Shown piece by piece: positions 14,784 through 24,538 of a stretch of DNA of 24,924 bases. The translations under genes and the position numbers were made by a program. Position 1 is the stretch's first letter, and each line of letters opens with the position of its first letter. The notes beneath the pieces are model-generated. The model was not told the DNA's origin, searched no databases, and worked only from the letters and a program-made list of their open reading frames with translations. This DNA is from a virus: positions 1 through 24,924 of IMG/VR virus record IMGVR_UViG_3300021963_000612; one strand, 5' to 3'.

Positions 14784-14940
14784 TCTGAGTCTTGCAAAAG
14801 TGTTTGTGGATCAGGTGTTCATGCGAAATCACCTGTCCACACTTCTGGCATAACCAAGCAACTCCCTCATCCACTTGATGCTGGCGGTCACCTCTTAGAC
14901 CTCGTTGCTTACCGTAAAACGTGCGTATTTTTACAATCAA
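14737..14940 (-). CDS. Small putative zinc-finger protein, end of the minus-strand operon
   Basis: This is a 67-residue protein starting at TTG in a TTGA overlap with the stop of the gene before it in the operon. The centre reads CQKCGQVISHEHLIHKHFC, a C-x2-C...H-x3-H-x-H-x2-C cluster able to hold zinc. The N-terminal half is basic (KQRGLRGDRQHQ). Its 3' end runs 47 bases into the convergent endolysin gene, which is unusual and lowers confidence. A role in nucleic-acid or protein binding is inferred from the cysteine/histidine pattern only. Confidence 0.5.
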   Translation of the reverse strand: MIVKIRTFYGKQRGLRGDRQHQVDEGVAWLCQKCGQVISHEHLIHKHFCKTQIKPVVHSNTESSLPP

Positions 14941-15311
14941 GAATTTTTATCCTTGAGTTTGGCTTCAATGGCATAAGCAACTTCAGTTGCATAATCTCCG
15001 TGGAGCATATTGATTGATTCAATAGCTTGTGCAATTTCATCATCTGTCAGCCCTACCCAGGTGCGCTGTGAGTGGGTGTAGAGCATCGTGCCAACTGGCA
15101 TGGCATCAATTTCAGGCTGGTCAAAATCAATGTCATGCTTCTTGTTATTCATACAAACCCACGCCACAGGCTCTTGCTCTTGTGCCAAGGCTTGCGCCGC
15201 CTCATTCAATAGCATGATGTCAGACGCATCAATCTTGATGCCCTCATGCCAACCCTCGCTAAATCTCACAGCCAACGCCTCAAGCGCTATGCGTAATGCA
15301 TCTTGTGTCAT
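14937..15311 (-). CDS. Conserved phage protein (RTWVGLTDDE type)
   Basis: This is a 124-residue protein of unknown function. The N-terminal helix (MTQDALRIALEALAVRFSEG) is followed by QEPVAWVCMNNKKHDIDFD, IDAMPVGTMLYTH and the end motif SQRTWVGLTDDEIAQAIES. The EPVAW...LYT...R-x-WxGLTDDE pattern recurs in small accessory proteins of many proteobacterial phages (from memory). It is coupled to the upstream gene by ATGA and to the downstream one by TTGA. Its first codons are nearly identical to those of the upstream gene (ATGACACAAGATG), which hints at a local duplication of the translation start. Confidence 0.7.
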   Translation of the reverse strand: MTQDALRIALEALAVRFSEGWHEGIKIDASDIMLLNEAAQALAQEQEPVAWVCMNNKKHDIDFDQPEIDAMPVGTMLYTHSQRTWVGLTDDEIAQAIESINMLHGDYATEVAYAIEAKLKDKNS

Positions 15312-15529
15312 GCTTGCTCTCCTCTGGCTCTGATTGCTGCTCCTACTGCGCCCATAAAAGATGCTTTTGTATGTTTGTCTGCAATTTGAGCACAGGCTTC
15401 GCGTTCTTTGGCGGCTACAAGGTTGGCAAAGCGTTCAAGTTGCGCTATAACGCCCAAATGCGGCGAACGGGAATACGCATCTTGAATATTAACTTCTTTA
15501 GCCATTTCAATAATTTCATCTTGTGTCAT
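15308..15529 (-). CDS. Conserved phage protein (IRARGEQA type)
   Basis: This is a 73-residue helical protein of unknown function. It contains LERFANLVAAKEREACAQI and ends in AAIRARGEQA, a pattern found in many small phage proteins (from memory). No catalytic motif is seen. It has ATGA overlaps with the genes on both sides, so it is translated as part of the chain. It shares the MTQDE/MTQDA opening with its downstream neighbour. Confidence 0.7.
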   Translation of the reverse strand: MTQDEIIEMAKEVNIQDAYSRSPHLGVIAQLERFANLVAAKEREACAQIADKHTKASFMGAVGAAIRARGEQA

Positions 15530-15711
15530 TTCTTCATGTTCCTTACAAAAACTGCAAAACTGTCTGTTGTATCTGGTGGGAATGCTGACTTGAACTTAGT
15601 CTGAATCTCTGTTGCCACTTCCTCAATCACAATATTACGATAAGGATTTAGCTCAACATCAACTAGTTTTAGTTCCTCAATTTGTCGTTTTCGATTCAAT
15701 GATTCGGACAT
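15526..15711 (-). CDS. Small unknown protein
   Basis: This is a 61-residue protein (MSESLNRKRQIEELKLVDVE...FAVFVRNMKK). The start chosen is ATG 15711, with GGGGGG four bases upstream; a longer reading to 15777 has no ribosome site. It is a charged N-terminal helix followed by a short globular part. It overlaps the preceding gene by 35 bases and the following one by ATGA. I do not recognise it. Confidence 0.55.
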   Translation of the reverse strand: MSESLNRKRQIEELKLVDVELNPYRNIVIEEVATEIQTKFKSAFPPDTTDSFAVFVRNMKK

Positions 15712-15919
15712 TGTTCCCCCCAAGTTCTTGAATTCGTTTGCTAAGACGCATGATGCGTTGTTTGTTGTAGTCCACAATGGCTTGCGAATACTCTACTGAA
15801 GTCTCTGCTTGCAGCTTGGCAAGTTGTGCTTCAGTCAGTTCCTTTTCAACCATCTCCATAGGTGTCTTTGCCCTGAGCAAATCCTTGACGTACTGAATCG
15901 TGAGTTGCCGCCAGTTCAT
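15677..15919 (-). CDS. Small coiled-coil protein, unknown
   Basis: This is an 80-residue, mostly helical protein. Residues about 20-65 (MEMVEKELTEAQLAKLQAET and on) suggest a coiled coil. The start is ATG 15919, in an ATGA overlap with the HTH gene before it, and the end runs 35 bases into the next gene. No enzyme or membrane motif is visible. As the direct partner of an HTH protein it could be a regulatory cofactor, but that is a guess. Confidence 0.6.
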   Translation of the reverse strand: MNWRQLTIQYVKDLLRAKTPMEMVEKELTEAQLAKLQAETSVEYSQAIVDYNKQRIMRLSKRIQELGGNNVRIIESKTTN

Positions 15920-16110
15920 GCCTTTTTCCTTTTTGTTGTTTCTTTGAATCTTCCGGCCTTACGAAAGATGGTCAGCATAGACTTGTATAAGACACCGAAT
16001 CTGTTGGCAATCTCTAACTTGGTAAACCCCTGTTCATACAAGCTAAACGCTCTACGCTCGTCAATGGTGGGTAGCTTCCTGCCTGACCCTACTCTTGCCC
16101 CGCCTTTCAT
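15916..16110 (-). CDS. Small helix-turn-helix DNA-binding protein
   Basis: This is a 64-residue basic protein. It opens with MKGGARVGSGRKLPT, the G-A-R-x-G-x-GRK start common to small phage DNA-binding proteins. Residues about 18-50 (RRAFSLYEQGFTKLEIANRF, then GVLYKSMLTIFRKAG) form a resolvase-like helix-turn-helix. It ends in a Lys/Arg tail (KETTKRKKA). It probably binds DNA as a small regulator or packaging factor. A GGGGACGCAA site precedes the ATG, which overlaps the previous stop by ATGA. Confidence 0.7.
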   Translation of the reverse strand: MKGGARVGSGRKLPTIDERRAFSLYEQGFTKLEIANRFGVLYKSMLTIFRKAGRFKETTKRKKA

Positions 16111-16409
16111 TTGCGTCCCCTATATGTGAACACCAATGATCTTTTGATGCTTGAGTCGGTGCATCTGTAAGTTTTTGCCCCCATATCTTTAACCCACTTC
16201 TCGCAAACAGGGCATATCACTGGTCTTCTCCGCTTTTTAACAGATACATAACAGTGAGAGCGCAGACTGATACCCCCAATACGAATCCGAATAGAGTCAG
16301 TAGCAGTACCCAAAAGATTGTTTCCAGCATGAGTTTTCTCCCTTGAATCAAAGTAAAAGAGTGAGCCAGCACAAAGCAAAGCCAAGATGACTTTGTTTAA
16401 GTGGCTCAT
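16107..16409 (-). CDS. Small zinc-ribbon protein, start uncertain (16409 or 16220)
   Basis: The frame is open for 100 codons from an ATG at 16409 that overlaps the previous stop (ATGA) but has no Shine-Dalgarno. That version begins with a hydrophobic helix (NKVILALLCAGSLFYF) and a poorly structured middle. The alternative start is GTG 16220, behind GGAGAAGACC and in a GTGA overlap with the stop of the membrane ORF at 16217-16330. It gives a 37-residue protein with CPVCEKWVKDMGAKTYRC, a CPxC...YRC metal-ribbon pattern seen in small phage proteins. The C-terminal 37 residues look real in either reading. I prefer the short start. Confidence 0.5.
   Translation of the reverse strand: MSHLNKVILALLCAGSLFYFDSREKTHAGNNLLGTATDSIRIRIGGISLRSHCYVSVKKRRRPVICPVCEKWVKDMGAKTYRCTDSSIKRSLVFTYRGRK
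16217..16330 (-). CDS. Tiny membrane protein
   Basis: This is a 37-residue protein, nearly all one hydrophobic segment (ETIFWVLLLTLFGFVLGVSV, then CALTVMYLL) with a polar end KSGEDQ. ATG 16330 is preceded by GGGAGA at good spacing, and its TGA overlaps the GTG of the zinc-ribbon reading (GTGA). It lies inside the longer 100-codon frame in a different reading frame. Small phage membrane proteins often block host functions or superinfection, but no function can be assigned here. Confidence 0.5.
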   Translation of the reverse strand: MLETIFWVLLLTLFGFVLGVSVCALTVMYLLKSGEDQ

Positions 16410-16672
16410 TTGGCGGCAGCCACAATCAACTCTAACTCAGCGTCTTTGAGTTGGCCTTTGAGAATCTCGACTTCCTCTTCTAGTCTCAAAATCTTATTCT
16501 CAAGCCTCTTGCGACTCATGGTTTCAGCGTGAATCCAACCTAGCAAGGATGCCTCATCAGCTACCTTTTCAATCAGTTGGATGATGTCGTTACGGCTCAT
16601 GAACCCGCCAGCAATGTCCTTGGTAGGTGCAATCTTGGTAACCAGTTCTTTCAGTTCTTTATGCAGACTCAT
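16406..16672 (-). CDS. Small coiled-coil protein, unknown
   Basis: This is an 88-residue protein. The start chosen is ATG 16672, which has AGGAG upstream and overlaps the previous TGA; a longer reading to 16702 has no ribosome site. It is almost wholly helical, with a C-terminal heptad coiled coil (LENKILRLEEEVEILKGQLK). The N-terminal half (SLHKELKELVTKIAP) is charged. It could be an oligomeric adaptor or inhibitor; no family is recognised. Confidence 0.6.
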   Translation of the reverse strand: MSLHKELKELVTKIAPTKDIAGGFMSRNDIIQLIEKVADEASLLGWIHAETMSRKRLENKILRLEEEVEILKGQLKDAELELIVAAAK

Positions 16673-16917
16673 GCTGTTTCTCCTTGTGGTTGTGTATTCC
16701 ATGCGTGTTGCAAGGCGGTGAAGTTCATGGGGGCAATGGTGACGGTGGACAGGAACAAGCCCTTGCCATGCGTCCTACGCCCCCAATCGTCTGTTGCCTT
16801 GATGTTCTTGAGTTCACCTCTTTTCACGGCGTTGTAGACGCTATGAGGCTTAAATTCAGCCTCTTCCAGTTCTTCCATTGAACGAGGTTCTTTGCAGAAG
16901 TCTTGTAGGGGTGTCAT
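16669..16917 (-). CDS. Small winged-helix-like protein, unknown
   Basis: This is an 82-residue protein. Residues about 10-50 (EPRSMEELEEAEFKPHSVYN, then AVKRGELKNI) look like a small helix-turn-helix or winged-helix domain, ending with a strand-like GKGLFLSTV. This would suit DNA binding, but the match is only by eye. It has ATGA overlaps at both ends, within the operon. Confidence 0.55.
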   Translation of the reverse strand: MTPLQDFCKEPRSMEELEEAEFKPHSVYNAVKRGELKNIKATDDWGRRTHGKGLFLSTVTIAPMNFTALQHAWNTQPQGETA

Positions 16918-17129
16918 GCTTCTCTCGCTTTCAACATTGCGTCTGCCACTTCGTAAGAAAGTCCCGCCAATTCTGAATACATGATGACTTCACCTCTTGC
17001 GGCACAACCTGAAATAGCACCCTGCATCGCTTTTGCCGCAAAGTAGTCACGCAAGGTCATGCCTCTTGAATTTGTTTCTTGGTCTTCTATGTATACGCTT
17101 TGTACTGGAAATGCTGGTGGGTTATTCAT
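16914..17129 (-). CDS. Conserved phage protein (GMTLRDYFAAKA type)
   Basis: This is a 71-residue protein. It shows MNNPPAFPV, then RGMTLRDYFAAKAMQGAIS and YEVADAMLKAREA, a pattern carried by a very common family of small accessory phage proteins of unknown function (from memory). The motif sits where the family usually has it and the length is normal. ATG 17129 overlaps the stop of the tiny membrane gene (ATGA), and its stop overlaps the next gene's start. Confidence 0.8.
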   Translation of the reverse strand: MNNPPAFPVQSVYIEDQETNSRGMTLRDYFAAKAMQGAISGCAARGEVIMYSELAGLSYEVADAMLKAREA

Positions 17130-17218
17130 TTCACCAACTCCTTTGCAATCTCAATCAAGAAAGGGATAGACAAGATCAAACCGATTACTATGGCCTGAAA
17201 GGTTTGCTTAAGCGTCAT
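17126..17218 (-). CDS. Tiny membrane protein
   Basis: This is a 30-residue protein (MTLKQTFQAIVIGLILSIPF and on, ending EIAKELVK), mostly one membrane segment with a charged end. ATG 17218 lies seven bases after AGGAG (17230-17226) and overlaps the end of the previous gene by 11 bases. A longer reading in the same frame to 17350 is rejected, because its first part is the out-of-frame shadow of the 17208-17360 gene. Function is unknown. Confidence 0.5.
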   Translation of the reverse strand: MTLKQTFQAIVIGLILSIPFLIEIAKELVK

Positions 17219-17360
17219 CATCATTCTCCTCACAGAGTTCACAGGTTGGGTGGTCAGGGTCACGGCAGTCAGGGTGGTTGAGCAACTGGTTGTTGTAGCG
17301 TCTGAGGTACATGGCTTCAAGCCGTATCTCGTTTGCTTCTGATTCGTCAATGTCTCTCAT
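17208..17360 (-). CDS. Small acidic protein with H-x2-C...H-x2-C-x2-C
   Basis: This is a 50-residue protein starting in a TAATG overlap with the previous gene, behind GGAGAAG. It is acidic and ends with HPDCRDPDHPTCELCEENDD, where His/Cys spacing suggests one bound zinc. Similar DCRDPDHP-x-CE endings occur in small phage proteins (from memory). The rest is a helix (EANEIRLEAMYLRRYNNQLL). It is shorter than 60 codons and easily missed by gene finders. Confidence 0.6.
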   Translation of the reverse strand: MRDIDESEANEIRLEAMYLRRYNNQLLNHPDCRDPDHPTCELCEENDDDA

Positions 17361-17638
17361 TAGTAATCTTCTCCAGCTCTTGCTGGCTGTGCGCCAAGGA
17401 ATTGAGAGTTGTAGGGTGCGTTGTAGTTGAATGATGCTTTACGCATTACTGCTGCGGCTATTGCATCGCACTTGTCAGAATCAATTTCAGGGAAATTGCA
17501 TTCAATGTTGTAGCTAAGGCTTTCAATATCCCATCCGCTACATGACTCTAAACAATTTTCTGCATGAGTAACCGCATTGCGGGTTATTGCAAATGCGTCA
17601 ATTCTTGCTAAGTAGGTTTTGCTTTGATTTGCATTCAT
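17360..17638 (-). CDS. Small unknown protein
   Basis: This is a 92-residue protein from ATG 17638, preceded by AAAAGGAAAA. It is helical with scattered cysteines (HAENCLESCSGWDIES; ECNFPEIDSDKCDAI). No motif, signal or membrane segment is visible, and I do not recognise the family. It is the second gene of the minus-strand operon, 48 bases after the first. Confidence 0.6.
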   Translation of the reverse strand: MNANQSKTYLARIDAFAITRNAVTHAENCLESCSGWDIESLSYNIECNFPEIDSDKCDAIAAAVMRKASFNYNAPYNSQFLGAQPARAGEDY

Positions 17639-17686
17639 TTCAATTTTCCTTTTAGGTTGAAAGATGGGGCTTGCGCCCCCTTGGGT

Positions 17687-17959
17687 TTACTTGCGTTCTA
17701 CAGTGCCAACCAATTCGCCATCCATGATCAAAAACAAAATGTGTTTGGCAATGTTGAGTGTTTGACGGCTGCGGTCTTGTGCTCCACCAGCAATCCATTC
17801 TTGAGCATCAGACATCAGTCCAGCCACAACCATGTTTGCGCCTGTGAATTGGTATGTGATGGATTCTTTGACCAACTCCACATAAGCGTCAATATCAGCG
17901 ACTCCATACATATTGATGTTGCGTTCTTCTTGAGCAGTTGTTTGTGTTGCGTTTGTCAT
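17687..17959 (-). CDS. First gene of the minus-strand operon, unknown
   Basis: This is a 90-residue protein. The start chosen is ATG 17959, with GGAGAT seven bases upstream; a longer reading to 18001 would begin inside the promoter's -10 region. The product has an N-terminal polar arm (NATQTTAQEERNINMYGV) and a globular helical part (YVELVKESITYQFTGANMVV). No known family is recognised. As the first gene after the leftward promoter it is the likely immediate early product of this operon. Confidence 0.65.
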   Translation of the reverse strand: MTNATQTTAQEERNINMYGVADIDAYVELVKESITYQFTGANMVVAGLMSDAQEWIAGGAQDRSRQTLNIAKHILFLIMDGELVGTVERK

Positions 17960-17996
17960 TTGAAATCTCCTTGGGGTTGCGTTGTTGATGTTGCCA

Positions 17997-18024
17997 ATCA
18001 TATAGAAGTCAATCAGGTAGTCAA
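17997..18024 (-). promoter_or_regulatory. Leftward sigma70-type promoter
   Basis: On the minus strand, TTGACT at 18024-18019 and TATGAT at 18002-17997 are separated by 16 bases, each with one mismatch from consensus. The predicted start is near 17990, giving a leader of about 30 bases before ATG 17959. It faces away from the rightward promoter, so both share the 18.0-18.1 kb control region. Confidence 0.65.
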
Positions 18025-18077: not shown

Positions 18078-18106
18078 TTGACCAATGGATTAAAAGTCTC
18101 TAGACT
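18078..18106 (+). promoter_or_regulatory. Rightward sigma70-type promoter, probably leaderless
   Basis: TTGACC at 18078-18083 and TAGACT at 18101-18106 are separated by 17 bases. Transcription should start about seven bases later (18112-18115), only a few bases before ATG 18117. No Shine-Dalgarno is present, so the message would be leaderless or nearly so, as for lambda cI made from its maintenance promoter. Confidence 0.6.
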
Positions 18107-20100: not shown

Positions 20101-20164
20101 TCCCAACCCCAATCCCCCAACCGTGACATCTGTCACATTCTTAAAACTTTCAAAAGGAAACATT

Positions 20165-20761
20165 GTGAATTTAAACCTCAGTAACTCAGGCGGCGGTAAC
20201 GGTAACTACATCCGCTTTTCTCCTCAAGCTAACGCATGGTCAAACCAAGATGGCGAGTTCATCTTGGAGAAGTTTGTCTTTGACATCGACAATGTGCAAA
20301 CTGGTTGGATGCTCATCGCAACTGGACAGTTCGAGTTCATTGCTGATGACTCGCTAGGACGTAAAGGCGCACAGCCTACACCTGAACATAAACGAGGCTT
20401 CAAGGTCATCTTCTACAACAAGACTATGGGTGTCGCAGAATGGTCGGCAAATGGTGCTGGCTCAAACATGGGACTTGAAGCTCTTTACAAGCAAGCAGTT
20501 GCACAGAGACTTACCAACCCCGACAAGTTGCCCGTGGTGGAGTACAAATCTTCACGCCCCGAAAAGGTCGGTAAAGGTAGCACCCGTGTACCTGAGTTCA
20601 ACGTAACGGGTTGGGTAGCAAGACCCGCAGCATTGTCAGATGACAACTCAGGCGGCTTTGATCCCGAAATCTCAGCACCTGTACCCGTCAAACCAGCACC
20701 TACACCCGTCAAGGCCAAGCCAGCACCTACACCAGTAGATGATGATGAGATGTTCAGCTAA
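20165..20761 (+). CDS. Candidate single-stranded DNA-binding protein
   Basis: This is a 198-residue protein from GTG 20165, which has AAAGGAAA just upstream. A reading from 20123 lacks a ribosome site. The N-terminal two thirds look like a beta-barrel (NYIRFSPQANAW; GWMLIATGQFEF; RGFKVIFYNKTMGVAEWSA). The C-terminus is a Pro/Lys linker (PVPVKPAPTPVKAKPAPTPV) ending in the acidic tip DDDEMFS, the hallmark tail by which SSBs recruit partners. It sits between a DNA nuclease and a primase-helicase. The assignment rests on tail and context; the OB fold itself is not proven. Confidence 0.65.
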   Translation: MNLNLSNSGGGNGNYIRFSPQANAWSNQDGEFILEKFVFDIDNVQTGWMLIATGQFEFIADDSLGRKGAQPTPEHKRGFKVIFYNKTMGVAEWSANGAGSNMGLEALYKQAVAQRLTNPDKLPVVEYKSSRPEKVGKGSTRVPEFNVTGWVARPAALSDDNSGGFDPEISAPVPVKPAPTPVKAKPAPTPVDDDEMFS

Positions 20762-20834: not shown

Positions 20835-22892
20835 ATGTCAGCACAAGAAATAGCGTCCATCTTGGGTAACGCAAAGAAAGTAGGCAACGGTTACCTAGCA
20901 TCATGCCCCGTCCCCGATCACGGTCAAGGTAAGGGAGATAAGCATCCATCCCTATCCATCACCGAATCAACTGACGGGAATTACCTCTTCAAATGTCACG
21001 GTGGCTGTGACCAGCATACAGTGTTCAGCACCATCAAGGATATGGGAATACTGCCACAGCTACCAGACAGACCTGAATACTTGTCCAGCATCAAGCCAAT
21101 ACCTACCAGTTCACAGGCCACAACCTCTACAACTCAAACACTTGAACATGAATGGCATTACGTTGACGAGGACGGCATCTCACTCTTTCTCAAGCAACGA
21201 TTCAAGACCAATGACATCAAGGGAAAGACATATAAGACCCTGAGAGTCATGCCTGATGGCAGTCGAGTAGGCAAGTTAGGTGATTGCCGCATCATCCCTT
21301 ACAGACTCCCCGAACTGCGACAAGCAGTTGCCGATGGCAGAGTCATATATATAACTGAGGGTGAGAAAGCGGCAGATAGCTTATGCAGTCTTGGGGTAGT
21401 AGCTACGACATCTCACGCTGGTGCTGGTGGTTGGAATCCAGACCTGAACCAGTACTTTGCTGGCGCAAATGTAGTTATCGTCCCCGACAATGATGCCGCT
21501 GGATGGGGTTACGCCCACAAGATCGTGGAATCCTTACTTGGATCAGGCAGCACAAAAAGCATCAGAGTCTTGGATTTACCCCTCACCCACCCTAAAGAAG
21601 ATGCCTACGAGTGGGTCAACAGGTATGACGGTTCAAGGTCATTGTTGGCACAACTGGCAAAAGCCTGTCCTATCGTCAAGTCTGTAGAAGATGTATGGCA
21701 ACCAGCAAGGCTGCATGAATATGTGCCTGAGCCACTACCACCACAAGAATCTAGTGCTTCCCTCAAAGAGGCAAAACCCTCCAGATTACTGGTCGAGTCT
21801 TGGGACTCAATCAAGGATGAGCCAGTTGAGTGGCTGGTGCAGTCGATTATTCCAAAACGTGCATTCGTTGCCCTGTACGCACCCCCCGCCTCATGGAAGT
21901 CATTCATTGCACTTGATCTAGCTGAAGCAATAGCCACAGGACGAGATTGGATGGGTTACAAGATACCCAAGAAAGGCGCAGTACTGTACATCTGTGGTGA
22001 GGGTCACGGCGGTATGGGCGCAAGGGTAAAGGCTTGCAAGATACAAAACCAGAGTCCTGATGGCGCAAACCTGTACATCATTAGAGCGCAACTTAACCTT
22101 AGATCAAGCCCTGAAGACTTTGCGGAACTCCTCAACGCAATCAATGACCTGATAGCTGAGATAGGTGAACCACTTGAAATCATCATCCTTGATACCTTGA
22201 TGAGGATGTCTGGCGGTGGGTTCAATGAGAATAGTTCTGAAGATATGGGTGCATTCATCACCCAAGCAGGAAAACTCCAAGAACTCTTTGAATGTGCCTT
22301 GATGGTAATTCACCACAGTGGTAAAGATGTCACTAAAGGACTCAGAGGTCATAGCTCCTTGCTAGGTGCTGTAGACACTGAACTTGAGATACAGCGGCAG
22401 GATTCAGTCATCAACTCAGCAGATTCAAGCGTCATAGGCAACGCAATACTCACAGTATCCAAACAAAAAGACGGTGCAGACTCCATCCAGATCGGCATTG
22501 AGATTGTGCTGGTGGAGATCGGAACATCAGACTTGGGGTTTGAAATCATCACCTCTTTAGCCATTAGGAACAACCCAGACATCGCAAATGACAAGCCAAA
22601 AGGGTCTAAAAACAACTCAGGGAGTGGCAACAATCAGCGGATTGAGATGGATTCGTTAATGAAAGTGATTAAGTCTAAAGGTACATATAGTGAAGTAGAT
22701 GGTACTAGTAGGTATGGCGTGAGTTTGGACGATTGGAGAGCCGAATTCTGGTCTATGAAAGGGTGTACTGAGGATGATAAGGTATCTTTTCGCAAGGCTT
22801 GGGTTAGGGCAAGAGAACGATTGGTAGCCGTTAATAAGATCACGATTGGGTCAAATTGGGTTTGGTTGAAGACAACCTCAGAATCTTACTAA
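20835..22892 (+). CDS. Primase-helicase (zinc finger, TOPRIM, RecA-like ATPase)
   Basis: This is a 685-residue replication protein. The N-terminal zinc finger has C24, H29, C54 and C58. The TOPRIM domain shows EGEKAAD (Glu175) and VPDNDAAG (Asp218, Asp220), the primase catalytic acids. From about residue 320 there is a RecA-like (AAA_25/RepA-type) ATPase: WLVQSIIPKRAFVAL, a Walker A at YAPPASWKS (Lys355) and a Walker B at LEIIILDTL (Asp453), followed by MVIHHSGKD. It should make primers and unwind DNA at the fork. The Walker A lacks its usual last glycine (Trp354). The ribosome site is weak. It follows a strong terminator and precedes the GACAAA repeat region. Confidence 0.85.
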   Translation: MSAQEIASILGNAKKVGNGYLASCPVPDHGQGKGDKHPSLSITESTDGNYLFKCHGGCDQHTVFSTIKDMGILPQLPDRPEYLSSIKPIPTSSQATTSTTQTLEHEWHYVDEDGISLFLKQRFKTNDIKGKTYKTLRVMPDGSRVGKLGDCRIIPYRLPELRQAVADGRVIYITEGEKAADSLCSLGVVATTSHAGAGGWNPDLNQYFAGANVVIVPDNDAAGWGYAHKIVESLLGSGSTKSIRVLDLPLTHPKEDAYEWVNRYDGSRSLLAQLAKACPIVKSVEDVWQPARLHEYVPEPLPPQESSASLKEAKPSRLLVESWDSIKDEPVEWLVQSIIPKRAFVALYAPPASWKSFIALDLAEAIATGRDWMGYKIPKKGAVLYICGEGHGGMGARVKACKIQNQSPDGANLYIIRAQLNLRSSPEDFAELLNAINDLIAEIGEPLEIIILDTLMRMSGGGFNENSSEDMGAFITQAGKLQELFECALMVIHHSGKDVTKGLRGHSSLLGAVDTELEIQRQDSVINSADSSVIGNAILTVSKQKDGADSIQIGIEIVLVEIGTSDLGFEIITSLAIRNNPDIANDKPKGSKNNSGSGNNQRIEMDSLMKVIKSKGTYSEVDGTSRYGVSLDDWRAEFWSMKGCTEDDKVSFRKAWVRARERLVAVNKITIGSNWVWLKTTSESY

Positions 22893-22914
22893 GGTGGGAC
22901 AAAGTGGACAAAGT

Positions 22915-22928
22915 TGTATATATATACA
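22915..22928. repeat. Perfect AT palindrome
   Basis: TGTATATATATACA is a perfect 14-base palindrome, next to the first pair of GACAAA repeats. It could be an easily melted element or a binding site. Confidence 0.7.
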
Positions 22929-22951
22929 GTGACATATTAGGGTTTACCAGC

Positions 22952-22979
22952 GGGACAAACCACTTTTTAGGTTTGTCTC
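22952..22979. repeat. Inverted GGGACAAACC repeat
   Basis: GGGACAAACC at 22952-22961 and GGTTTGTCTC at 22970-22979 are inverted copies with one G-U pair, forming a ten-pair stem around an eight-base loop. The stem arms contain two of the GACAAA hexamers. Confidence 0.7.
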
Positions 22980-22990
22980 ACTTCTCTATA

Positions 22991-23028
22991 TTGCCTATTT
23001 TTTAGGCAAATGCTTAAAAATTAGGCAT
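22991..23028. repeat. Two adjacent hairpins
   Basis: TTGCCTA and TAGGCAA (22991-23009) pair perfectly around TTTTT. Directly after, ATGCTTAA and TTAGGCAT (23010-23028) pair with one G-U around AAA. The arms share the GCCTA/TAGGC core, so this may also be a repeated protein-binding site. Confidence 0.65.
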
Positions 23029-23132
23029 GATTTGATGTAATGTATAGAAAATGGGAGTTTTTATATGTATGTTTATCCAGTGACAAACGAGACAAAGTGG
23101 GACAAAGTCCCAAATGTCCCAGTTGAGGAGAT

Positions 23133-23174
23133 GGGGACAAACCACCCCTTATCTATGATAAGGGGTTTGTCTCC
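23133..23174. repeat. Large bulged hairpin
   Basis: CCCCTTATC (23145-23153) and GATAAGGGG (23157-23165) form a perfect nine-pair stem around TAT. It is extended by GGGGACAAA (23133-23141) pairing with TTTGTCTCC (23166-23174), with a CCA bulge on the left arm. No T run follows, so it is not a simple terminator. It lies 42 bases before the next gene. Confidence 0.8.
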
Positions 23175-23216
23175 TGTCGCTTTGTCTCTTTGTCTCTTTG
23201 TTTAAGGAAATTGAAA

Positions 23217-23867
23217 ATGGTTAGATCACGGTCAAGAAAAGATGTTCCAGATGTTCAAGTGCCTAAGCGTCAGGCAACACCTTGGGAGATTGAATCGAAT
23301 GCTGCACTCATGGAACTGGAGGTCAGGAAAGAGAAACATCACCAGAAATGGGGAGTTGATAGACTGATTACTTTAGTTGACAGTGAGTTTAGGGCTAAGT
23401 TCTGGGGTCAGATGGGTAGAGTTTGGGATAGTCTTGAACGTCATGACCTTGAACGGCTGCGTAAAGCAATTGCAGGGATGATCAAAGGTTATGACCATCT
23501 GGAGAAATGGGGTGAAGATAATGAGATCAACCCAAGCCCCACAAACATCAGATTCGTTGAATGGAAAACTCAATCAGGTCAGATCATGGCAGTTACAGAA
23601 ACGATAAATGATTGCATCGACTTGCAAAAGCTACGCAAAGACCTAACCATCTGGACTCTCGAAGAGTTTGAGGTAATCATCAACGAGCCAGCAGTACAGT
23701 TCATCATCAAGGCCAAAGCGTTTGACCCAACCGCACAGGTCAAGAGGTTCAAGGCTGGTGAGGACTTTGGCAAAGGTTCAGGCTTTGACGATATGGTCGA
23801 TGACCTTGAACCCGTCTACAGCGGTGGTGATCCACCAAAGATGTTTAACCTACCTAAGAGGAAGTAA
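23217..23867 (+). CDS. Unknown protein downstream of the repeat array
   Basis: This is a 216-residue protein from ATG 23217, with TTTAAGGAAA seven bases upstream. An extension to 23190 would read through the CTTTGTCT repeats and is rejected. It has a basic N-terminus (MVRSRSRKDVPDVQVPKRQA), a KWGVDRLITLV motif near residue 52, charged helices in the middle (WDSLERHDLERLRKAIAGMI), and a mixed C-terminus with FGKGSGFDDMVDDLEPV. The [KR]WG[VC]DRL pattern recurs in uncharacterised phage proteins near replication or packaging genes (from memory). As the first gene after the array it is the best candidate for binding the repeats, but no DNA-binding fold is evident. Confidence 0.75.
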   Translation: MVRSRSRKDVPDVQVPKRQATPWEIESNAALMELEVRKEKHHQKWGVDRLITLVDSEFRAKFWGQMGRVWDSLERHDLERLRKAIAGMIKGYDHLEKWGEDNEINPSPTNIRFVEWKTQSGQIMAVTETINDCIDLQKLRKDLTIWTLEEFEVIINEPAVQFIIKAKAFDPTAQVKRFKAGEDFGKGSGFDDMVDDLEPVYSGGDPPKMFNLPKRK

Positions 23868-24276: not shown

Positions 24277-24538
24277 TTATCCACAGGTTATCCACAGATC
24301 GGAGTCGAAGTTATCCACATTTGCACAGGTTGGTTGCAGTTTGCATCTCAGAATGCGCCAATCAGTAATACTTTCTGTGATTTTGAGTTAACATAATGGA
24401 CATTGTATTAAATGGATTTTGTCAGCAGTTTGTAAGCGTCTAGAAAAACTCTAGCAAAATCAACAACTTACAGAAGTTATCCACACTGTATACAGATGCC
24501 TGTGGATAACTCGCATACGACAATTTGCCTGTGGATAA
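24277..24538. other. Cluster of six perfect DnaA boxes, candidate replication origin
   Basis: TTATCCACA occurs at 24277-24285, 24288-24296, 24311-24319 and 24477-24485 on the plus strand, and as TGTGGATAA at 24501-24509 and 24530-24538. All six match the strongest DnaA consensus exactly. AT-rich DNA that could melt lies just left (about 24135-24210) and inside (24380-24480). No chromosomal origin neighbours (dnaA, dnaN, gidA) are present, so this looks like an origin of the phage or phage-plasmid itself, started by host DnaA (inference). Confidence 0.75.

Follow-up and report, generated by a model that had tools for sequence, protein, structure and literature searches.

A dense cluster of the hexamer GACAAA directly behind a phage primase-helicase gene raises the question of which protein reads these words and whether the site serves as an origin of replication. 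For most tailed phages from the environment the replication origin is, to our knowledge, not known. We analyzed an IMG/VR record of a phage from freshwater; the whole stretch of 24,924 b is here referred to as the window. The features discussed below are listed in Table 1.

The cluster contained 11 exact copies of GACAAA or its complement TTTGTC within 308 b, seven of them on the plus and four on the minus strand. Elsewhere in the window the word occurred 23 times in 24.6 kb, corresponding to 0.29 expected copies per 308 b. The Poisson probability of the cluster was 2e-14, or 1.7e-12 when corrected for scanning. GACAAA formed the strongest hexamer clump of the whole window. These counts confirmed a preliminary description of the DNA, which had reported eleven words on both strands with less than one expected. 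The hairpins mentioned there were present as well, and the array was indeed free of a coding frame, being located in the intergenic stretch that runs from the helicase stop (22892) to the ATG start codon (23217) of a gene for a 216-aa protein. Adjacent words started 8, 9, 9 and 10 b apart, so that the proposed spacing of one helical turn holds for the tandem words (9 and 10) but not for the array as a whole. The GC skew, suggested as a further indicator, was uninformative, since it followed the strand of the genes without an inversion at the array. In seven related records no second set of iterons, as would be expected for a copy-control locus of an iteron plasmid, was found elsewhere in the replicon. 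Words outside the array were scattered singles only, which speaks against the objection that GACAAA might be equally frequent elsewhere. G001 carried two full modules and probably represents two phages joined.

Table 1. Positions of the array, its hairpins and the neighbouring genes and motifs in the window
Feature	Position	Strand	Remark
Primase-helicase gene, 685 aa	20835..22892	+	Pfam AAA_25 7e-36; PHROG DNA primase/helicase families
Coding part of C-terminal domain, aa 593-685	22611..22889	+	proposed word reader (AF2, Foldseek, tree test)
Codons K654-A-W-V-R658, predicted recognition helix	22794..22808	+	positions tracking the word
Exact GACAAA words	22898, 22907, 22954, 23082, 23091, 23101, 23136	+	
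Exact TTTGTC (GACAAA on minus strand)	22972, 23166, 23181, 23189	-	
Tandem GACAAA pair of upstream half-array	22898..22912	+	missing from most relatives
Hairpin of upstream half-array, GGGACAAACC / GGTTTGTCTC	22952..22979	+	
Core array, tandem words F1-F3	23082..23106	+	spacing 9 and 10
P2, word/inverted-word hairpin TGGGACA...TGTCCCA	23098..23121	+	
P3, long hairpin	23133..23174	+	word stem 23133-23141/23166-23174, CCA bulge
P3, apical part	stem 23145-23152/23158-23165, loop 23153-23157	+	loop CTATG
Inverted words R2, R3	23181..23194	-	pairing with F1-F2 (P1) possible, observed within the family of the window
Shine-Dalgarno-like AAGGAA ahead of 216-aa gene	23204..23209	+	from sequence; conserved
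216-aa gene	23217..23867	+	conserved neighbour of the array; very probably not the word reader
Six perfect DnaA boxes TTATCCACA	24277, 24288, 24311, 24477	+	
	24501, 24530	-	span of all six 24277..24538

Comparison of the relatives divided the array into two blocks. All relatives had the core (23082-23194). The second block, an additional half-array upstream of it (22898-22979), was restricted to the window and a small number of relatives (L008-L010, L025 and L150; 170 b more). L080 carried a different insertion at this place. Searches with the 216-aa protein yielded 31 viral loci, and the array was in place wherever the upstream sequence was sufficient. The DNA pattern of the long hairpin alone retrieved 55 stretches, many of them new; every stretch was followed by a homologue of the 216-aa gene and, on contigs that reached far enough, preceded by the helicase. 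In most relatives the array started 1-5 b past the helicase stop or just overlapped it. The array lay directly 3' of the helicase gene in every relative found, and repeats lost between conserved flanking genes, which would have spoken against a function, were not observed. Among viral contigs, GTGGGACAAAGTGGGACA was found at one other locus. The helicase-array block showed no DNA similarity to cultured phages, and matches of the array alone to such phages were AT-rich chance pieces.

The genes 5' of the array are arranged in the order nuclease, a 212-aa protein ending in DDDEMFS, and primase-helicase. The same order was present in Roseobacter phage CRP-406 (PD-(D/E)XK nuclease, ssDNA-binding protein, primase/helicase). 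Judged by its acidic tail and by a gene position like that of the CRP-406 ssDNA-binding protein, the 212-aa protein (20123-20761) is probably a phage SSB. The primase-helicase is composed of a zinc/TOPRIM-type primase, an AAA_25 (RepA-type) helicase and a C-terminal winged-helix-like domain. Pfam recognized AAA_25 alone in this protein and gave no name to the C-terminal domain, and no PDB chain matched the helicase profile. The 216-aa protein had no Pfam or PHROG family, no PDB relative, no RepC-like match and no relative in bacterial genomes. The BFVD matches of its model were uncharacterised phage proteins, one of which (A0A6J5NZ37, E 1.7e-5) is labelled terminase small subunit. A reading of the array as a pac or cos site was derived from this label and dropped, since the protein fails to follow the changes of the word.

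The core array can form three pairings. RNAalifold proposed a consensus of 38 pairs, made up of P1 (F1-F2 with R2-R3), P2 and P3. The consensus was paired in 97.2% of cells, with both sides changed in 11 of the 38 pairs; none of 500 shuffles scored as high, and slid controls fell to 40-61%. The apical stem of P3 was Watson-Crick paired in 408 of 408 cells from 51 distinct sequences, four of its eight positions covaried, and the loop started with CTAT in the family-A sequences. When the P3 loop was surveyed automatically, a TAT-containing hairpin was detected in 110 of 126 arrays, some of these being words rather than P3, and the count relied upon here is that of family A only (51 distinct sequences). 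Rfam gave nothing at the gathering score in the window. A weak hit to RAGATH-22 (22944-23122, minus strand; 27 bits with 120 needed, E 0.0067) was absent in the relatives and is regarded as chance.

In distant relatives the layout remained constant and the word was changed in all copies at once. Alternative words were GTCTACAT, CCACAAA, CTACAAA, GAATATGG, TCGAAAA and [AT]ACAAA. Phages with helicases about 50% identical to that of the window showed the same layout with the words GGACAAATG, GGGACAAATGG, (G)GTCTACATATG (11-b tandem) and ACCACAAAT. Further variants were ACTACAAA, TGAATATGG and GTCGAAAATGG, and the tip of the hairpin read GTCTATAAGAC, CCCTATAAGGG or similar.

Which protein follows these changes can be seen in closely related phages with different words. 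L217 and L229 carry GGGACAAATGG, and L218, L219 and L231 carry GTCTACATAT. Between the two groups the homologues of the 216-aa protein were 97-99% and the helicases 89-91% identical. In blocks of 60 columns these helicases were 92-100% identical nearly everywhere before the last ~100 columns, where identity was 25-59% between the word groups versus 71-100% within them. Similarly, L254, L256 and L257 shared 93-95% with L227 over aa 1-585, beyond which the C-terminus was unrelated and the word was GAATATGG. Additionally, the seven word states of 105 phages were placed on trees, for which at least six changes are required. The tree of the C-terminal domain (last ~80 residues) needed exactly this minimum of 6, that of the rest of the helicase 16 and that of the 216-aa homologue 11. 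Linkage alone predicts no such difference, because the C-terminal domain and the 216-aa gene flank the array at about the same distance, and the 216-aa gene therefore served as the linkage control. Part of the co-segregation could nevertheless be hitchhiking in one recombination tract, since the C-terminal domain and the array are adjacent.

Structure prediction gave a winged helix for the C-terminal domain. An AF2 model of the last 93 aa (pLDDT 83, pTM 0.74) showed the order H-E-E-H-H-E-E, and the best PDB folds in Foldseek were CRP/FNR-type winged helices, with a moderate match to 2zcw (E 0.0096). The variable residues that track the word are located in helix 3 of this predicted fold, and single residues went along with single bases. 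Proteins with KAWxR had G before ACAAA in 165 of 174 words (KAWLR group) and in 110/125, 51/56 and 37/38 words of the other three subgroups. In L030 and L031, one clade of two sequences with VAWLR, this G was replaced in every copy simultaneously (A 7, T 7, G 0); P2 was complementary in both, and P3 was full in L031 and had one mismatch in L030. Thus K654 to V accompanied G to A/T. Likewise, Gly, Ser and Leu in a second motif corresponded to C, mixed and T: TYWGR was found with C 48 and T 0, TYWSR with C 24 and T 12, and TYWLR with T 52 and C 10. Words of the type GTCTACAT were accompanied by K-L-[WF]-W-R. The lysine is not strictly needed for GACAAA, since L190/L080 with QAWLR retained this word. 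Sequence comparison demonstrates this coevolution down to single residues, as it does the array itself, its conservation and the covarying hairpin.

On these grounds it is very likely that the C-terminal domain of the primase-helicase reads the words, and both the tree test and the residue-base pairs point to this domain as setting the iteron specificity. Of the two binding partners suggested in the preliminary description, the primase-helicase was therefore retained through its C-terminal domain, by coevolution, and the 216-residue protein was not, given its nearly identical homologues beside different words. With a probability of roughly 0.74 we regard the array as the cognate site of the upstream primase-helicase, read by its C-terminal winged helix and starting phage replication; it appears likely that the site makes up a replication origin, wholly or in part. 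In such a mechanism the winged helix would bind the GACAAA words in duplex DNA. Once several subunits are bound, the hexameric helicase would be nucleated at the array and phage DNA replication would start. The constant hairpin with its apical stem and CTAT(A) loop would be a melted or extruded element for helicase loading or primase start.

A cluster of six perfect DnaA boxes is located in a non-coding stretch past a 79-aa gene, 1.1 kb downstream of the array. Its spacing was conserved in nearly all close relatives, and one to three perfect boxes were present at the matching place in most of the distant ones. The cluster is a strong candidate for a host-DnaA-dependent origin in its own right and as such competes with the array. 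By analogy with iteron plasmids both may also cooperate, in which case host DnaA at the boxes would act together with the primase-helicase at the array.

The boxes also bear on a reading of the array as an autoregulatory operator, at which the primase-helicase on the words would repress or time the 216-aa and 79-aa genes while replication starts from the DnaA-box cluster. The array lies directly 5' of the 216-aa gene, whose Shine-Dalgarno sequence is found 10 bases past the last word, an imperfect LexA-like palindrome lies beside it, and the conserved box cluster downstream could supply the origin. However, an operator leaves the covarying constant hairpin unexplained, a consensus scan of the region gave no sigma-70-type promoter, and in known proteins of such layout the site is the origin (PMC7581432). 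We therefore consider an operator as the function of the site unlikely, though operator and origin are not mutually exclusive. Of the functions initially suggested for the array, the iteron-like nature and the phage-specific origin were supported, and operator or copy control found no specific support.

Considerably less probable still is a structured RNA leader, in which the folded transcript between the helicase and the 216-aa gene would act as a cis-regulatory RNA. The folding z-score of the region is -5.8, yet the minus strand folds about equally (-5.6). Similarly, the 38-pair consensus with its changes on both sides suits an RNA, but the apical stem contained no G-U in 408 cells. The word stems showed more G-U than A-C on the plus strand, which is explained by a purine freedom two bases before ACAAA. 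Furthermore, the outer helix P1 weakens in distant families, whereas the tandem words left unpaired do not diverge from one another, and no Rfam family matched the relatives. The slimmest chance is given to the 216-aa protein as a RepC-like initiator reading the words. It is conserved beside the array in all relatives, and RSF1010 pairs a separate iteron-binding RepC with the RepA helicase (PMC4234260). Against this stand the unrelated words beside 97-99% identical homologues, the 11 word changes on its tree versus 6 on that of the C-terminal domain, and a model without a PDB fold match below E 0.001.

The preferred reading, an array bound by the primase-helicase itself, can be compared with known systems. 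The preliminary description knew of no named system with this repeat, which was correct for the exact word and not for the logic, since SaPI Rep, Cch2 and the winged helix of P4 alpha follow it. No sequence homology to the P4 alpha helicase family was found, the P4 helicase being of SF3 type. Phage P4 alpha combines a TOPRIM-type primase, a helicase and an origin-repeat-binding winged helix in one polypeptide (PMC4234260), resembling the primase, helicase and predicted winged helix found here; it differs in the helicase family, and the array here follows directly on the 3' end of the gene and includes a conserved hairpin. SaPI Rep and SCCmec Cch2 are self-loading type helicases whose C-terminal domain binds short iterons just downstream of their own gene, as proposed here, and the isolated domain of Cch2 bound its iterons in vitro with the inverted repeats being dispensable (PMC7581432). 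Unlike these proteins (DUF927 or D5/Primase_Cterm), the phage protein joins an AAA_25 helicase (RepA type) to a TOPRIM-type primase, and in addition to the iterons there are DnaA boxes and a constant hairpin with a CTAT(A) loop. By analogy the array would work like SaPI Rep/Cch2 and P4 alpha, without being assigned to either by homology.

RSF1010/IncQ oriV shares the RepA-type hexameric helicase and iterons with short stem-loops; there, three proteins act as initiator (RepC), helicase (RepA) and primase (RepB'), and the stem-loops ssiA and ssiB serve for priming (PMC4234260). Here primase and helicase are fused and a separate RepC was not found, the 216-aa protein not tracking the word. In the pRN1-type rep, too, the winged helix is C-terminal and the gene is followed by a large stem-loop, but iterons are missing and the protein has an archaeo-eukaryotic primase and an SF3 helicase (PMC4234260). 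In the PLE satellites of Vibrio phage ICP1 the RepA DNA-binding domain and the iterons are exchanged as a module, and the ICP1 nuclease Odn mimics RepA and cuts the PLE origin (PMC8263062). This joint variation of initiator domain and iterons, with a possible selective reason, is the likeness to our phages; PLE differs by a RepA_N initiator, semi-palindromic iterons of ~30 bp and its nature as a satellite of ICP1. By analogy with PLE/ICP1, the turnover of words could be driven by conflict with origin-directed nucleases, satellites or co-infecting phages. More tentatively, and with less than even odds, we propose a widespread undescribed two-part phage origin. It would combine a variable specificity cassette, the C-terminal domain and its word exchanged as a unit under conflict, with a constant hairpin with a CTAT(A) loop, which the invariant primase/helicase portion would recognise in order to load or prime there.

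In six named phages an array of this layout, but built from different words, followed an AAA_25/TOPRIM helicase: Rhizobium RHph_N65 (word GGCGGAGAT, hairpin CCCCCTATATAGGGG), EBPR siphovirus 5 (partial sequence; GGCGGAAGTA, CCCCTATGGG), Alteromonas PB15 (GGTTCAC, ACACCTTATAGGTGT), Idiomarinaceae 1N2-2 (CGGTACA, ACACCTATATAGGTGT), Salicola CGphi29 (GGGGACA, CCCCCTGTAGGGGG) and Roseobacter CRP-406 (GGCTGGAAAT, GGGAACCCTAAGGGTTCCC). The array-bearing phages are a large subset of the helicase family and not all of it, because no array followed the AAA_25 helicases of Caulobacter GB2A, phi673, Upyo, KYD2, Mae-JY30, MW202711 and a Salmonella houtenae element. The main text of the CRP-406 paper mentions no origin of replication, iterons or repeats. 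We found no description of this array in the open literature; subscription journals could hold one. The origin-type site is recognisable by a simple rule: behind the gene for an AAA_25 primase-helicase, a repeated word is accompanied by a hairpin whose loop resembles CTAT(A). Cultured members are available from Alteromonas, Idiomarinaceae, Salicola, Rhizobium and Roseobacter. The variants found in nature constitute a specificity series, with individual recognition-helix residues tracking individual bases, which makes initiator-origin recognition and its exchange between phages directly testable.

Some further elements were observed in the region. LexA/SOS-box-like palindromes, TTGTATATATATACAG and ATGTATGTTTATCCAG, are located beside each half-array (22914-22929 and 23065-23080), the copy before the core being recognisable in most of the family; a similar motif CTGTATACAG is found at about 24484-24494 inside the DnaA-box region. 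Between the two half-arrays of the window lies an A+T-rich hairpin (TTGCCTATTTTTTAGGCAA, TGCTTAAAAATTAGGCA; 22990-23028), possibly an unwinding element, and a very similar TGCTTAATTTTTAAGCA is located between the duplicated arrays of L217 and L229, which belong to a different word group. The 41-kb record IMGVR_UViG_3300028025_001978 (L025, L028, L051) contains two divergent modules of 216-aa gene and array and may be two phages joined in assembly. Finally, a block of small minus-strand ORFs (14937-18001), followed at 18078 by an 89-aa HTH-like ORF, interrupts the otherwise plus-strand genome of the window and has the appearance of an early or regulatory region.
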